Of a stretch of 54,862 bases of DNA, positions 10,954 to 17,343 are shown one piece after another. Origin of the DNA: an uncultured Clostridia bacterium (lineage in GTDB: Bacteria > Bacillota > Clostridia > Lachnospirales > Bianqueaceae); the NCBI GenBank assembly GCA_944376225.1, contig CALWBZ010000100.1, positions 1 to 54,862 of the forward strand, written 5' to 3'. Position 1 is the first letter of the stretch; each line of letters starts with the position of its first letter. The notes below the pieces were generated by a model, which worked only from the letters and a program-made list of their open reading frames with translations, had not been told where the DNA came from and did no database searches. Made by a program: the position numbers and the translations under genes.

Positions 10954-12096
10954 TTAATCCTCTTCCTTTAGGATGGAGGGGTGGAGACGGAAGGCTTCAC
11001 AGAGGCGTTCGATTTCCTCGGCCGCCTTTTGTTTCGCGCTCTGAGAGACCGGCGCCTTGACGGCCCGGATCAACAGGTTCTTAGGGGTATGTTCCAGGTC
11101 CACAAATTCCAGAAGCTGGGTCTTATATCCCTTGGTCACCAGATAATTGGCCCTTATGGCGTCCGTCATCAGGGCGGAGAGGCGTTCTTTCACGATGCCG
11201 TAACGAGTCAGGATGGAAAGATCGTCACTCCCAATCTGTCCGTTCAACTCATGCTGAGAGCAGGGAACGGAGAAGATCATGGAAGCGCCGCAGGCCACCG
11301 CGTTTTGCAGGGCGAAATCCGTGGCGGTATCGCAGGCGTGAAGGGTGATCACCATATCCACGTTGGGTTCCTGACGGAAACCGTGGATATCCCCCACTTG
11401 AAACTGAAGCGTATCATAACCGTAGCGTTTCGCGGCGGCATTACAGCGAGCGATCACGTCCGCCTTTAGATCCAGGCCCAACATGGAGACGGGGATACCA
11501 CGGATCTGCGTGAAATAGTGATAAAGGATGAAGGTCAGATAGGACTTGCCGCAGCCGAAATCGATGATGCGAAGGGGCTTCGGAGGCAGATCGCGGATCG
11601 CGTCGTCCACCAGCTCCACGAACCGGTTGATCTGTCGGTATTTATCCGACATGGAAGGGATGAGCGTCCCCTCTTTGGTGAAGATTCCCATGTCCACGAG
11701 GGCGGGAATCACGGTGTCGGAGGCGAGCAGGTGGCGCTTAGGCCGGTTATGGGCCAGAGACAGCATGGCGGCGCCCTTAGAGAGAGCCTCGTGAAAGAGC
11801 ACGCGATTCTTCTTGGAGAGGCGGATGCTGTATTCATGATTGTCCGTCCAGGCATGGAGCTGGGCGTAACGCTCGGGCAGAAGGGCGTGCAGACGGCCTT
11901 CTAATTCCTGAGGATCATAATTTTCGTGAAAGACCTGGGTCGCGGTACGCCGGGCTTCCTGATAGTATCGCCGACCCTCCTCTTTTAGCAGGATCTCCCG
12001 ACGGGGATAGAGTTTTTCTTCTCCCCGGGGTTGGCTGAGGACGATGCGTTTGGGGGCGTCTTGTAAAATCTTGCCAAGGGCTTCTTCCAGGGTCAT
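10954..12096 (-). CDS. Class I SAM-dependent methyltransferase
   Basis: A 380-residue protein with a Rossmann methyltransferase domain in its second half. Motif I is IIDFGCGKSYLTF near 185-197, and later MVITLHACDTATD and a DLEHTPKNLLIRA segment fit the Methyltransf_32-like family. The N-terminal 150 residues are a family-specific extension. The substrate is unknown; RNA is plausible. It is the last gene of the dnaD-dnaC operon: its ATG overlaps the preceding stop by 4 bp (ATGA). Ends at the bidirectional terminator. Confidence 0.82.
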   Translation of the reverse strand: MTLEEALGKILQDAPKRIVLSQPRGEEKLYPRREILLKEEGRRYYQEARRTATQVFHENYDPQELEGRLHALLPERYAQLHAWTDNHEYSIRLSKKNRVLFHEALSKGAAMLSLAHNRPKRHLLASDTVIPALVDMGIFTKEGTLIPSMSDKYRQINRFVELVDDAIRDLPPKPLRIIDFGCGKSYLTFILYHYFTQIRGIPVSMLGLDLKADVIARCNAAAKRYGYDTLQFQVGDIHGFRQEPNVDMVITLHACDTATDFALQNAVACGASMIFSVPCSQHELNGQIGSDDLSILTRYGIVKERLSALMTDAIRANYLVTKGYKTQLLEFVDLEHTPKNLLIRAVKAPVSQSAKQKAAEEIERLCEAFRLHPSILKEED

Positions 12097-13106
12097 AGGG
12101 CGCCCTCCTCTCTAAGACGCTTTTTCCTGCGCAGGTCGGGTCCGATGAAGCGGCAGAACGTATAAGAGCCGAAAATACGGGAAGAGAATCGATCCCCATA
12201 GGCGGCGCCCAGATCAGCGAAGGTCAGATTGGTCGAGATCAGAGTGGAGCGGCGGGCCAACAGCCGCTGATTGACACAGTGGAAAAGCTCCGTCACGGAC
12301 AGGGTATTGCGAAATTCCGTCCCCAGATCGTCCAGAATCAGCAGGTCGCAGCTTTCGACGGTCTCGGAGGTGAAGGAAAGCCGCGGCGAACGGGCCCGAT
12401 CCTGGAACCGTTCTTTCTCCAGAAGGGCGCATAAATCGTAGGCGGTCACATATAATACGGTGTAACCCTGGTCCAGCAGTTCTTTGGCCACGCAGTTACA
12501 TAAGAAGGTCTTGCCGGTACCGGTGGGACCGCTGAAGAGCAGGTTTTGTCCCGGGTTCTCGGAAAAACTCCCGAGGAAACCCTGTACCCGCTTCAGAATC
12601 TGCTGCATGTTCTGACGAGGAGTCAGGGTCTCGGAGGGGACGGGACGATCCTCAAACAGGGACAGATCAAAACAGGCCATGTTTTCCCGTTCCAGGATCC
12701 GCTCCAGGCCGGACTGGTGATAGGCGCGGTTGATCAGCTCCTGCTTTAGACACCGGCACTTCTCGTATTGCACATATCCCGTGTCCTTGCAGAGGGGGCA
12801 GGCATAGCGCGTTTCCATATAATCCGTGGGGTATCCCGCCCCCAAAAGGAGCGCTTCCCTGCGTTCTTTTAATTCATCCATCCGCTGACGCAGCCGGGAC
12901 AGCGCTTTATGGGGGTCTTTGCCGCATTTCAGGTATGCGCCCATGGCGCTTAAGCTAAAAGATTCGATCTCGTCGTCGATCGTCTTCACCTCCGGCAAAC
13001 GCTCATAGACTTCTTTCTGCCGGTTTTCCCGGGCAAGCTTTTCCGCGGCGCGCCGGTCCTCGTATTCCTTCAGGATCTGCTGCAGGATCTCCTTTGAGAC
13101 GGGCAT
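12093..13106 (-). CDS. dnaC: Replicative helicase loader, DnaC/DnaI-type AAA+ ATPase
   Basis: Loads the replicative DnaB-type helicase onto single-stranded DNA at initiation or restart. The 337-residue product has an N-terminal helical helicase-binding region, a zinc-binding cluster (CPLCKDTGYVQYEKCRC), then an AAA+ core with Walker A GPTGTGKTF, Walker B LLILDDLGTE and a sensor region (LISTNLTF). AAAGGAGG precedes the ATG. It sits between dnaD and a methyltransferase gene on the minus strand, as in many Clostridia. In Bacillus the equivalent gene is dnaI. Confidence 0.92.
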   Translation of the reverse strand: MPVSKEILQQILKEYEDRRAAEKLARENRQKEVYERLPEVKTIDDEIESFSLSAMGAYLKCGKDPHKALSRLRQRMDELKERREALLLGAGYPTDYMETRYACPLCKDTGYVQYEKCRCLKQELINRAYHQSGLERILERENMACFDLSLFEDRPVPSETLTPRQNMQQILKRVQGFLGSFSENPGQNLLFSGPTGTGKTFLCNCVAKELLDQGYTVLYVTAYDLCALLEKERFQDRARSPRLSFTSETVESCDLLILDDLGTEFRNTLSVTELFHCVNQRLLARRSTLISTNLTFADLGAAYGDRFSSRIFGSYTFCRFIGPDLRRKKRLREEGAL

Positions 13107-13142: not shown

Positions 13143-14189
13143 TCAGACGGGATCGCCATATGTAAACTGCGTCAGTTCCTTTTCCAGCTGATCATAATCC
13201 ATATCGCTGCGCTGGGTGTAATTTAGGAAACTGTTTTGGGAGCGGCCGTTCGCGGCACGCCGGGACGGATGTTCTCGGTCGGAGGCCGCCTTCTGTTCGT
13301 AGGCCGAATCCGCTTTTTCTAACTCCTGGCGGGTATGGACCCCGTGCTTATGCCAGTCGGACAAGATGCCTTCCAGATAACGGAAACTCGGCGTCTTGGC
13401 CCGTATCTGGGTGCGGCGGCAGGCCTCCATCATCATCTCTTCCGGCATCTGGTACTGCTGCTGGAGTCGGTCCAGACTGCGGCAATCCTCGTCGGTGGGA
13501 TATCGGTTTAGGCCCATCGCTTTGAGCAAGGGACGGTATACGTCGAGCCGCTGTACGTAATCTTGAGCCTGCCGCGCGGAGCGGATGTCGTGATCCGCCC
13601 AGTCCTGGGCCACCCGCTCGATATAGCGAAGATCCCGGTGACCGCCCCGCACGCAATAATGAATCAGAAACTCGATCACGTCCAGGGGCAGACGGTAATA
13701 GTCATAGAAGCTGTACAGGGTGGACAGGTTAGGCTGACTCAGGATCTGCCCCAGGGACGCCGCGGCGGAAGAGAACAGATGCTGGATCTGGGGATCCCGT
13801 CCGTAGATGCTCAGCTCGTCCGGGGAATAGGTGGGCTTTTGCTCCACCCGGATGACTTTCGCCGGGGCTTTTTCCGGGACGCCCGAGGGAGGCGGGGGGA
13901 CGGAACCCTCCGAGAAGGAAATCTCCATAGCGCCCTCCTTTTCGCGGATTTGCACGAGTCCCTCCTTCTCCCAGTAACGCAAGCCTTCCAGTACGTCGGA
14001 CTCGATCATATGCAGGGTCTCGGCCGCCTCCGAAGTCGTCGGCTCCCCTTGGGGGGTCTGGCTGTGACATAAAAAGAAGAGGTAGACTTTGACGTAGGCT
14101 CCATTGGCCTGGGGCATATGCCGCAGCAAAAACGCGTTGGAAACCAGGGTATAGGGAGAAGAACAAGCAGAAAAGGTCACTGTGGGCAT
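13143..14189 (-). CDS. dnaD: DnaD-domain replication initiation protein
   Basis: A 348-residue primosomal protein. The N-terminal winged-helix part (about 1-95) is followed by a linker and DnaD/DnaB-type domains, the last with the YxxxW-like signature region (YLEGILSDWHKHGV near 270-285). DnaD-type proteins remodel origin DNA and help recruit the helicase loader, which is encoded directly downstream. AAGGAGG stands before the ATG. The mRNA probably starts near 14300 and has a stable leader hairpin. The DnaA-box cluster at 14369-14496 lies just upstream. Confidence 0.88.
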   Translation of the reverse strand: MPTVTFSACSSPYTLVSNAFLLRHMPQANGAYVKVYLFFLCHSQTPQGEPTTSEAAETLHMIESDVLEGLRYWEKEGLVQIREKEGAMEISFSEGSVPPPPSGVPEKAPAKVIRVEQKPTYSPDELSIYGRDPQIQHLFSSAAASLGQILSQPNLSTLYSFYDYYRLPLDVIEFLIHYCVRGGHRDLRYIERVAQDWADHDIRSARQAQDYVQRLDVYRPLLKAMGLNRYPTDEDCRSLDRLQQQYQMPEEMMMEACRRTQIRAKTPSFRYLEGILSDWHKHGVHTRQELEKADSAYEQKAASDREHPSRRAANGRSQNSFLNYTQRSDMDYDQLEKELTQFTYGDPV

Positions 14190-14232
14190 GAGAACGCCTC
14201 CTTATGTAAATTAGAGCCATGGGGCTAACAGG

Positions 14233-14292
14233 TCCTTGGCGCGGGGACGGATGCGGCCTCGCGCGCCGCCTCGCGAGGCAAGGCGCCAAGGA
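14233..14292 (-). other. Structured 5' leader of the dnaD operon
   Basis: A perfect 10-bp outer stem, TCCTTGGCGC (14233-14242) with GCGCCAAGGA (14283-14292), encloses an inner 8-bp stem, GCCTCGCG (14256-14263) with CGCGAGGC (14272-14279). On the minus strand it lies between the promoter and the dnaD ribosome site. No U-run follows, so it is not a simple terminator. No known riboswitch is recognised. Confidence 0.7.
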
Positions 14293-14304
14293 ATCGTAAG
14301 TACA

Positions 14305-14311
14305 CCTATTA
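14305..14311 (-). promoter_or_regulatory. Extended -10 promoter for the dnaD operon
   Basis: Read on the minus strand, TGTATAATAGG gives a consensus TATAAT with an extended TG. No good -35 is seen at 17 bp; the upstream DNA is A-rich. The DnaA boxes start about 60 bp upstream. Confidence 0.6.
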
Positions 14312-14368
14312 TACATGATTTTTCTTTTTTTGGGAAGGGCGAGATATACACCGGGTTTTCCGATAAAG

Positions 14369-14496
14369 TTATCCACAGGGGGTGTGAATAAGTGGATAAC
14401 TTTTTATTTTATGGAGAAATCAGGGGTTTTAAGGTGAAAAATATCCACAGGGCATGAGGAGAAGTTTTCTCAAGCAACTGTGGATATCGTGGATAA
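14369..14496. promoter_or_regulatory. Cluster of six DnaA-box-like sites
   Basis: Six 9-mers match TTATNCACA or differ by one base: TTATCCACA at 14369-14377 (plus), TTATTCACA at 14383-14391 (minus), TTATCCACT at 14391-14399 (minus), ATATCCACA at 14441-14449 (plus), ATATCCACA at 14479-14487 (minus) and TTATCCACG at 14488-14496 (minus). Two weaker ones lie inside the murC 3' end (TTATCAACA 14551-14559; TTGTCCACA on minus 14565-14573). The intervening DNA is AT-rich. It occupies the gap between the murC stop and the dnaD promoter. This is probably a DnaA-binding regulatory or titration site. Confidence 0.85.
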
Positions 14497-14497
14497 G

Positions 14498-15853
14498 TTA
14501 TTGACTAAGCAGATCTTCTCCGATGGTTGCCACGTCTCCGGCCCCCATGGTTATCAACAGATCCTGTGGACAACATTTTTTTCGTAAGAAGTCTTCGATT
14601 TCCGCGAAGGAACCGAAATAGTAGGCGTCGGCCCCCTGTTCTCGCAGCGCGTCGGCGATCATGCGGGAATGGATGTCTCCCGGATCCTTCTCCCGGCTGG
14701 CGGAATAGATGTCGGCCAGTATGACGTGGTCCGCCAGGGAGAGAGCCTTGACGAAATCGTGAAAGAAGGCCTTGGTTCGGCTGTAGGTGTGGGGCTGGAA
14801 AACCACATAGAGATCTTTCTCGGCCACTTCTTTCGCGGCCTGGAGGGTGGCGCGGATCTCCGAAGGATGGTGGGCGTAGTCGTCGATGACCTTGGCCCCC
14901 TGAAACATCCCCTTAAATTCAAAACGCTTTTTCGGACTCCGGTATTTGGACAGTCCTCTGCGGATCTCCTCGAAGGAGACGCCGCTCCATAAGGCGGCGC
15001 CCACGGCGCACAGACAGTCGAAAATATTATGGGAACCGGGGACGTGAATGGTCAGGCGTCCCAGGTTTTGGCCTTTATAAATACAGTCGAAATGGCTGCC
15101 CAGATGATCCTCCGCGGGTTCGACGCGGGCGGCGGTCAGATCCGCCTGAGCGTTCTGCAAAGAGACCGTCAGCATCTGTCCCTGATAATCGGGGAAGAGG
15201 GACTGATAATCGTAGTTGAGAATCAGGCACCCTCCGGGTTTTAGTCCGGCCACGTATTTCCGGAAGGAATCCACCATCCGTTCATAAGTCTTGAAGTAAT
15301 CCAGATGTTCCGCCTCCACGTTCAGCACGATGCCGATCTGGGGATGGAAATGCAGGAAACTGTCCGAATATTCGCAGGCTTCCGCGATAAAATAGGAAGA
15401 GCGGCCGATACGGTAGTTGCTGTGCAGGTTTTCTAAAATGCCCCCGATGGTGATGGTGGGGTCTTTATCCGTTTCCAGGAAAATATAGGAAAGCATGGTG
15501 CTGGTGCTGGTCTTGCCGTGGGTACCGGCAATGCCGATGGAATGCTCGTACTCGTCCATCAATTCGCCTAAGAGGACGGAACGCTCGATGACCCTGGGCA
15601 CGGACCTGCGAGCCTGGATCAGTTCGGGGTTATCTTCATGAACGGCGGCGGTATAAACGGCCACGTCGATACCCGGACCAATATTCTCGGCGCGTTGGCC
15701 AATGGCCACCGAGATGCCCTGTTCCTCGAGGGAGCGGGTGATCGGCGTCTCCTTGATATCGGAGCCGGAAACCTCGTATCCCCGGGATTTCAGGATGCAG
15801 GCCAGGCTGCTCATGCTGATGCCGCCGATGCCTATAAAATGAAAATGCTTCAT
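14498..15853 (-). CDS. murC: UDP-N-acetylmuramate--L-alanine ligase
   Basis: Adds L-alanine to UDP-MurNAc with ATP, the first amino acid of the peptidoglycan stem peptide, in the cytoplasm. The 451-residue protein has the N-terminal Rossmann UDP-MurNAc domain (FIGIGGISMSSLACIL), the central ATPase with P-loop GTHGKTST (about 113-120) and DDYAHHPSEI, and the C-terminal Mur ligase domain. Length is normal. It is transcribed divergently from glmU, with promoters back to back; its stop abuts the DnaA-box cluster. Confidence 0.97.
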   Translation of the reverse strand: MKHFHFIGIGGISMSSLACILKSRGYEVSGSDIKETPITRSLEEQGISVAIGQRAENIGPGIDVAVYTAAVHEDNPELIQARRSVPRVIERSVLLGELMDEYEHSIGIAGTHGKTSTSTMLSYIFLETDKDPTITIGGILENLHSNYRIGRSSYFIAEACEYSDSFLHFHPQIGIVLNVEAEHLDYFKTYERMVDSFRKYVAGLKPGGCLILNYDYQSLFPDYQGQMLTVSLQNAQADLTAARVEPAEDHLGSHFDCIYKGQNLGRLTIHVPGSHNIFDCLCAVGAALWSGVSFEEIRRGLSKYRSPKKRFEFKGMFQGAKVIDDYAHHPSEIRATLQAAKEVAEKDLYVVFQPHTYSRTKAFFHDFVKALSLADHVILADIYSASREKDPGDIHSRMIADALREQGADAYYFGSFAEIEDFLRKKCCPQDLLITMGAGDVATIGEDLLSQ

Positions 15854-16062: not shown

Positions 16063-17343
16063 ATGGAAAGACAATGGAAAGCGATTGTGATGGCGGGCAG
16101 AAATGACGGCAGCGTGGTCGAGGGAAAGCCGATCTGTCTGTTTCCGCTATTGGGAATCCCCGTGATCCAGTACGTGCTGGACGCGCTTCTTGCGGCGGGA
16201 GCCAAGGAGATCTGTGTTTTAAGCTCGGAAGAGCCCGAAAAATACGAATCGGTTTTAGGAAAGCAGGAAAAGATTTGGTATCTGAAAGGGGAGAAGGGAA
16301 GCACCCCGGCGAAGGACGCGGGATTCTTCGATGAGACAGAAGAGGATGTGATCCTGGTCTCCGCCAATACGCCCCTTTTAGCGGCGGAAGAGATCAAAGA
16401 CCTGGTACAGGTGCATCAGGAACACGGAAACGCGGCGACGTATTATATGCCGGAAGCGGGGGAGAGGACGCCGGTGATGAGCTACGATCACGGCTTCTGT
16501 TTCTGTTTTCGGGCGAATTACTTGGCAGACGCGCTGGACGCGGTATCGAAATACGCGGCGACGAATATCCTCACCCGGGTGGTGGCCGACGGCGGCCGGG
16601 CGGAACAGCGGATACGCCCGGGCTGCGGAGCCTTTGACATCATCCGAAACCGGGTGCAGATGGCCGTGGTGTTAAAGAAACTTCAAATCCGAATCAACGA
16701 GCGGCATATGAACGACGGCGTCATGATCATGTCGCCGGAGACGACGTATATCACTCCCCATACGGTCATCGGCCGGAACACGCTGATCTACCCCGGCACC
16801 TACCTGGAAGGCAGGACGGTGATCGGCGAGGACTGTGTGATTGGTCCGAACTCCCGTCTGGTCTCCGCCTCCGTAGGAGACGGCGCGGAGATCGCCTATT
16901 CCACGGTGCTTCAAAGCGAAGTGGGACGGGGAGCGCATGTGGGGCCCTATGCCTACGTGCGGCCGGGCAGCCGGATCGGCGAGGAAGTCAAGATCGGCGA
17001 TTTCGTGGAGATCAAAAACTCCCATATCGGGAAGGGAACCAAGGTGTCCCATCTGACCTATATCGGGGACGCGGACGTGGGAGAACGGGTGAACTTCGGC
17101 TGCGGAACGGTGGTGGTCAACTATGACGGGGTGAAAAAGCATCGTACCGTCATCGAGGATGACGCTTTCATCGGCTGCAACACGAACCTCGTCTCTCCTG
17201 TGCGGGTAGGGGAAGAGGCTTTCACCGCCGCGGGTTCCACGATCACGGAGGACGTCCCGGCGAAAAACCTGGCCATCGCCCGGGCGAAACAGGTCAATAA
17301 AGAGGGCTGGGTCAGCCCGAAAGAAAGAAGCGAAAAAGAGTAA
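16063..17343 (+). CDS. glmU: GlmU-like protein: intact acetyltransferase, degenerate uridylyltransferase
   Basis: GlmU normally acetylates glucosamine-1-P and then uridylylates it to UDP-GlcNAc. This one has 426 residues against about 455. The C-terminal left-handed beta-helix is intact, with RPGSRIG, EIKNSHIG, SHLTYIGDADVG (His330, the predicted base) and NFGCGTVVVNYDG. The N-terminal half has lost its signatures: LxAGxGTRM is replaced by VMAGRNDGSVV, and the Mg-binding GDxPL is SANTPLL (Asn102 for Asp). The stretch that normally carries GYGRI and the VEEKD segment is shortened. I infer loss of uridylyltransferase activity. It is first in the operon with pth and mfd; prs is absent. Confidence 0.85.
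   Translation: MERQWKAIVMAGRNDGSVVEGKPICLFPLLGIPVIQYVLDALLAAGAKEICVLSSEEPEKYESVLGKQEKIWYLKGEKGSTPAKDAGFFDETEEDVILVSANTPLLAAEEIKDLVQVHQEHGNAATYYMPEAGERTPVMSYDHGFCFCFRANYLADALDAVSKYAATNILTRVVADGGRAEQRIRPGCGAFDIIRNRVQMAVVLKKLQIRINERHMNDGVMIMSPETTYITPHTVIGRNTLIYPGTYLEGRTVIGEDCVIGPNSRLVSASVGDGAEIAYSTVLQSEVGRGAHVGPYAYVRPGSRIGEEVKIGDFVEIKNSHIGKGTKVSHLTYIGDADVGERVNFGCGTVVVNYDGVKKHRTVIEDDAFIGCNTNLVSPVRVGEEAFTAAGSTITEDVPAKNLAIARAKQVNKEGWVSPKERSEKE

Follow-up and report, generated by a model that had tools for sequence, protein, structure and literature searches.

The murC–dnaD junction

The window, which is the whole stretch of 54,862 nucleotides analysed here, carries on its minus strand and in this order murC, a cluster of putative binding sites (DnaA boxes) for DnaA, the protein which starts chromosome copying, a gene for a DnaD/DnaB-like helicase loader and a gene for a DnaC-like ATPase. 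The product of murC (14498–15853, minus strand), UDP-N-acetylmuramate–L-alanine ligase, was recognised by TIGR01082 (460.8 bits, cut-off 335.1) and by the Pfam Mur ligase domains. The DnaD-domain/DnaB-like loader protein (13143–14189, minus) contains two DnaB_2 stretches (PF07261, 116.7 bits; TIGR01446). The DnaC/DnaI-like AAA+ helicase-loader ATPase (12093–13106, minus) matches NF005304/PRK06835 (370.3 bits, cut-off 215) and IstB_IS21. The two loader genes are called dnaD and dnaC below.

An earlier note on this DNA had described six DnaA-box-like 9-mers ahead of the loader genes, two of them exact, together with two weaker sites extending into murC. A scan with TTATNCACA, allowing at most one mismatch, recovered all eight, within 205 bp (14369–14573). 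Six lie outside murC, at 14369 (plus), 14383 (minus), 14391 (minus), 14441 (plus), 14479 (minus) and 14488 (minus), two of them exact for TTATNCACA, and two lie inside it, at 14551 (plus) and 14565 (minus). The AT-richness of the cluster was likewise confirmed, its GC content being 0.38 as against 0.56 for the window.

The final 75 or so nucleotides of murC hold two boxes of the array. The first is a weak box, TTGTCCACA (14565–14573, minus), 75 nt before the end of the stop codon, which is also present in genomes G003 and G004; the second, TTATCAACA (14551–14559, plus; −61), lies in the codons for MurC LLITM and is opposed to the tandem boxes. Module A begins 2 nt past the murC stop with TTATCCACG (14488–14496, minus), which is abutted at a 9-bp step by ATATCCACA (14479–14487, minus). 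A reverse box, again ATATCCACA, follows at +49 (14441–14449, plus). Module B consists of TTATCCACT at +99 (14391–14399, minus), the exact box TTATTCACA at +107 (14383–14391, minus) and the exact reverse box TTATCCACA at +121 (14369–14377, plus). The adjoining and overlapping boxes of the earlier note are thus the abutting pair of module A and the two minus-strand boxes of module B, which share one base. With TTATCCACG and ATATCCACA as its first module and an overlap in its second, the window array is a slightly degenerate case of the layout described below. A dnaD promoter, TTCCCA-17-TATAAT, is predicted at 14308–14336 (minus; 10 of 12 consensus matches), its −35 element lying 32–33 bp past the last box.

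No tRNA gene lies near the array in the window. The dnaD leader (14190–14300, minus) can form a long GC-rich hairpin (−40.8 kcal/mol), which was considered as an RNA element and rejected: its fold z-score against shuffled sequences is −0.87, it has no Rfam match and it is not conserved in the genus. A GlmU-like gene (16063–17343, plus) scores below its NCBIfam cut-off (377.8 versus 450); its N-terminus seems to be without the usual glycine-rich nucleotidyltransferase signature, and the uridylyltransferase half may be altered.

Conservation across Lachnospirales

The order was taken as Lachnospirales, which includes many abundant gut bacteria, on the strength of named relatives sharing the array, Blautia and Vallitalea being members of this order. 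A DnaD protein search gave matches in 283 of 295 genomes of the order. In the upstream DNA that was sampled, box clusters were found, with few exceptions, where murC is directly upstream with room between the genes, and few boxes or none were found otherwise.

Conservation of the boxes in relatives had been proposed as a check on the cluster, and it is borne out: the array is present at 116 of 127 in-order murC–dnaD junctions. At these 127 linked junctions 682 boxes were counted after the MurC motif, compared with 68 in dinucleotide shuffles and 78 with the reversed pattern, and 106 of the loci contain an abutting pair. Other orders of the class supplied 23 murC loci, none of which has the array; these loci hold 9 boxes in total, with a maximum of 2 per locus. 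The array criterion behind the counts 116/127, 11/24 and 105/127 leaves the coding-embedded box out, while the definition of array loci behind the distances in 101/118 and 91/103 loci, and behind the outgroup coding-box count of 0/23, partly used it. Loci were de-duplicated by exact sequence alone and the counts are not phylogenetically independent; locus L132 (genome G088), in which the MurC motif was not found, was left out.

A search with a DnaC alignment returned 80 named loci, and murC is directly upstream in 53 of them. In 50 of these 53 at least four boxes lie in the interval from −110 to +700 relative to the murC end, the coding box being included in the count. The named murC-linked loci include Blautia parvula, Butyrivibrio fibrisolvens, Herbinix and Vallitalea. 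Neither murC nor exact boxes were found at the dnaD genes of C. difficile, Clostridium, Caloramator, Thermoanaerobacterium, Tepidibacter and Sedimentibacter.

Geometry of the array

The layout of the array is rigid. The first abutting pair lies 48–50 nt past the MurC motif LLITMGAG in 101 of the 118 array loci which have a pair, and the murC stop codon ranges from 42 to 105 nt past the same motif. Since the pair keeps its position while the stop shifts, the array is placed relative to the coding sequence and not to the stop codon. Among the 116 linked arrays the commonest steps between boxes on the same strand are 9, 12 and 21 bp (176, 68 and 62 cases), the commonest opposite-strand offsets are +48/+39, and boxes oriented with murC outnumber those opposed to it by 543 to 138. 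A third box 12 bp beyond the abutting tandem boxes is part of the layout, as is a second module, in most cases some 165 bp off. A second abutting pair, found in 58 linked arrays, is mostly 156–167 bp from the first.

An alignment of 79 non-redundant sequences has highly conserved box columns and nearly random columns beyond them. These loci had been picked because they hold a tandem with at most 4 mismatches, so that what the alignment can show is limited to the difference between boxes and flanks. The dominance of abutting boxes, with a gap of 0 bp, raises a structural question as to how DnaA packs on DNA. Abutting pairs were also seen just past dnaA in genomes G004, G005 and G255, and the 9-bp unit may thus be a shared feature of replication origins within the order.

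A box within the murC coding sequence

The TTATCAACA box, on the strand opposite to murC, falls in Leu-Leu-Ile-Thr codons. The array loci carry it in 105 of 127 cases, the in-order loci which lack the array in 4 of 24 (Fisher p ~6e-10, relatedness ignored), and the 23 outgroup murC loci in none. It is separated from the first tandem pair by 62–64 bp in 91 of 103 loci. Among 124 array loci, 107 use ATA as the Ile codon within the box. When loci selected by pattern are included the figure is 112 of 129, compared with 22.4% (1090/4866) for the other Ile codons of the same genes. The bias is also seen in GC3-rich murC genes, where the Ile codon of the box is ATA in 45 of 54 cases against a background of 12.1% (211/1739).

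The retention of the coding box, the ATA bias and the fixed spacing together amount to strong evidence that what is constrained at the LLIT codons is DNA and not protein. The embedded box and its fixed spacing also tie the array to murC. A site for the control of replication would in this way be able to shape codon choice in an essential gene of cell-wall synthesis.

Relation to the helicase-loader genes

The position of the array ahead of dnaD and dnaC invites the explanation that it is chiefly an operator of the dnaD–dnaC promoter, at which DnaA activates or represses the loader operon and so couples initiator level to loader supply. The order murC–array–dnaD, kept at 116 of 127 linked loci, counts in favour of such an operator. 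The predicted TTCCCA-17-TATAAT promoter is found 32–33 bp past the last box in all three members of the window's genus, in which the leader has diverged, and promoter-like matches occur in 77 of the 116 linked arrays, with 46 expected by shuffling; all 16 rows of family f1 are positive. In genome G021 a gene named from its sequence as response-regulator-like separates murC from a complete box module, and the module has remained with dnaD, about 230–280 bp upstream of it. A precedent may be offered by Caulobacter, whose replicative helicase gene, dnaB, has predicted DnaA boxes upstream according to PMC8203912. Across the order, by contrast, the promoter position varies, and the best match overlaps a box in only 16 of 77 cases. 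The extension of the array into murC, where it constrains codons, also counts against a dnaD operator.

The behaviour of the array where the genes have separated bears on the operator explanation from both sides. The murC gene was searched for in 25 genomes in which dnaD was not beside the murC found, of which 24 could be scored; this unlinked set of 24 loci was obtained by removing from 29 the five loci fetched for a match to the tandem pattern. The array is still at murC in 11 of the 24 genomes, and this argues that control of dnaD is not the whole reason for its conservation. The next gene converges on the array in 7 of the 11 (a SPOUT methyltransferase twice, an alanyl-tRNA synthetase-like protein, DUF6809, LeuA, SLH and RNase H), and in the other 4 it is an unrelated gene on the same strand, ArsC-like or for oligopeptidase F (the latter identified by Pfam in two genomes and by its open reading frame alone in L126). 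Upstream of the unlinked dnaD genes boxes are mostly absent; three loci of family f17 (L049, L058 and L059) have two or three boxes nearby. At the same time the array is far rarer in the unlinked set than at linked junctions (11/24 versus 116/127; Fisher p=1.3e-6, phylogeny uncorrected), a drop in retention which titration of DnaA alone does not predict. It is absent altogether from 13 of the 24 genomes and is thus dispensable there.

The suggestion of the earlier note that DnaA controls the loader genes therefore stands as a possibility, given the promoter after the array in the window's genus, and fails as a full account of why the array is kept. The link to the loader genes is real as synteny and, judged on this evidence, a candidate only as function. 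Control of dnaD is a plausible added role of the array and may be its main role in some families; that it is the chief role overall seems rather doubtful.

Transcription at the murC 3′ end

The anchoring of the array to murC, with a box embedded in the coding sequence, is also compatible with a role directed at murC itself. DnaA bound at the 3′ end of the gene would then block RNA polymerase or set the level of read-through, linking the synthesis of cell-wall precursors to replication. The boxes are oriented predominantly along murC transcription, nothing resembling a terminator was found at the junction in the window, and roadblock termination by DnaA is mentioned for E. coli in PMC11317965. 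Terminator-like hairpins, however, are about equally frequent at linked loci with the array (39 of 116), at in-order loci without it (9 of 24) and in the outgroup (7 of 23). The array is hence no substitute for a terminator, and the idea that it replaces one was rejected. In G021, moreover, a gene stands between murC and the module. On this evidence a role in murC transcription appears unlikely.

Relation to the replication origin

The earlier note held that the cluster is not the usual oriC, and this was upheld: dnaA and dnaN of the window's own genome lie on another contig, C31. The GC-skew analysis it had called for was run on a complete relative, G054 (3.01 Mb), by reading 20 stretches of 20 kb. 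The sign of the skew flips at dnaA, from −0.148 in the 20 kb to the left to +0.177 just to the right, and does not flip at the array, 250 kb away, where it is positive on each side (+0.148 and +0.162).

A second or ancestral replication origin at the array is accordingly very improbable. The density of boxes and the tandem pairs do resemble those of an oriC, and abutting pairs occur beside dnaA, for example in G255 and G004. Against this, the array of G054 is at no skew switch, which rules out origin identity for this one genome, and column conservation in the 79 aligned sequences gives no sign, past the boxes, of a DnaA-trio or unwinding element.

In the seven genomes from which arrays were fetched, the array lies 250, 471, 181, 270, 346, 1258 and 107 kb from dnaA, or about 2–13% of the chromosome in six of them and 27% in one. 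Gene coordinates, with replication assumed to take the shorter arc, place murC–dnaD–dnaC head-on to replication in six of seven genomes (G054, G060, G130, G165, G183, G043 and G104), an orientation not usually seen among the essential operons of the phylum.

Box frequencies in the window and its genome

The window as a whole contains 29 box matches, where shuffled versions average 17.4 and reach at most 28. At the murC–dnaD junction 8 boxes fall in a 409-nt region, where 0.34 are expected and none of 200 shuffles reaches 8, and in 300 shuffles of the neighbourhood no 210 bp held more than 2. The cluster is richer in AT than the window, so that chance occurrence in AT-rich intergenic DNA might be entertained, but this is refuted by the shuffles, the reversed-pattern control, the conservation, the fixed spacing and the codon bias, and its probability is negligible.

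The draft genome to which the window belongs (2.49 Mb, 142 contigs) contains 57 exact copies of TTATNCACA. Counting exact sites, there are four places with at least two per 200 bp, against 0.25 expected by chance (P(4 or more)=0.0002). Two of the four are the dnaA–dnaN region on C31 and the murC–dnaD cluster; the others are a pair (C38:5489) and, ahead of hpf, a further cluster (C38:24916).

A probable DnaA-control site outside the origin

A geometry which is near-fixed, lies partly within murC and is kept across the order away from the origin suggests that the array is probably a dedicated DnaA-control site and not only a switch for the adjoining helicase-loader genes. On balance we favour the explanation that it is an extra-origin DnaA-binding site in its own right, which would time initiation through titration of DnaA, a role proposed for the DnaA-box clusters of B. 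subtilis, or through the state of DnaA and may also tune dnaD–dnaC. Titration at the array, which the earlier note had offered as one of its two suggestions, is at present the likeliest reading.

We infer that DnaA would bind the oriented boxes cooperatively, occupying the coding box, the abutting pair with its third box, the reverse box and the second module, and that the bound protein would build an ordered complex over about 200 bp. The array appears as a rule to be origin-proximal and would be duplicated soon after initiation. Doubling early, it should hold DnaA off oriC or set the state of the protein, and initiation would be timed by either route. With dnaD–dnaC downstream, a complex beside their promoter may in addition tune loader supply.

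A bolder version may be considered in connection with YabA, the negative regulator of DnaA in B. subtilis. In a search which, among regulators of DnaA, covered YabA (PF06156), none of 57 genomes of the order scored over the cut-off and two gave sub-threshold matches, while the same profile matched in B. subtilis and L. lactis as a control. The array might then be an order-wide cis-acting DnaA control site, with a rigid architecture reaching into murC, which serves as a main initiation timer where YabA is missing and feeds into dnaD–dnaC supply; this we put forward tentatively, as a possibility short of an even chance.

The closest parallel is found in B. subtilis, in which six extra-origin DnaA-box clusters (DBCs) were described by Okumura (2012), as summarised in the reviews PMC5295017 and PMC13220808. 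According to the same reviews, removal of all six leads to early initiation and restoration of one gives partial relief. A DBC is defined by at least three clustered boxes away from oriC; the array, with dnaA on a different contig, has eight sites in 205 bp. Like the DBCs, it lies outside oriC and would be expected to bind free DnaA, and in most of the genomes measured it seems to be origin-proximal. It differs in occupying another locus, the murC 3′ end, and is set apart by the fixed modular geometry, coding-embedded box and order-wide conservation found here.

In E. coli, datA has five boxes and an IHF site, and DARS1 and DARS2 share a three-box core (PMC4585315). The array may be likened to these as a non-coding, position-conserved DnaA control locus of fixed layout; it differs in that its boxes are mostly in the same orientation and abutting. 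With the clostridial origins oriC1 and oriC2, as described for C. difficile in PMC7561715, the array shares the box consensus and tandem boxes; it differs from them in not lying beside dnaA–dnaN and in having no skew switch and no conserved element past the boxes. The double DnaA boxes of E. coli are pairs 2–3 bp apart, and DnaA prefers a 3-bp gap, according to PMC11317965. The 12-bp step of the array corresponds to a 3-bp gap and matches this spacing, whereas its dominant 9-bp step, with a gap of 0 bp, falls outside the E. coli optimum.

The titles and abstract openings of the open-licence literature searched do not describe the array, which is weak evidence of absence, and yielded no account of the control of initiation outside oriC in Lachnospirales. 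Among the literature searched, the array thus represents an unreported variant of the extra-origin DnaA-box cluster, real and deeply conserved. It offers one defined, mutable site of exact predicted geometry, at which models of titration, of transcriptional control and of a roadblock to RNA polymerase make different predictions.

The array may have a counterpart upstream of the gene for the ribosome hibernation factor (hpf/RaiA-type). In the window's own genome this cluster (L096:6917–7072, equivalent to G000:C38:24916–25072) has 6 boxes, 4 of them exact. At least four boxes were found upstream of hpf in 13 of 30 loci read across the order, one of these (G054) being without an exact box, and the boxes often form a triple with a 12-bp and then a 9-bp step. 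The hpf-upstream cluster is possibly a second member of a network of DnaA sites.
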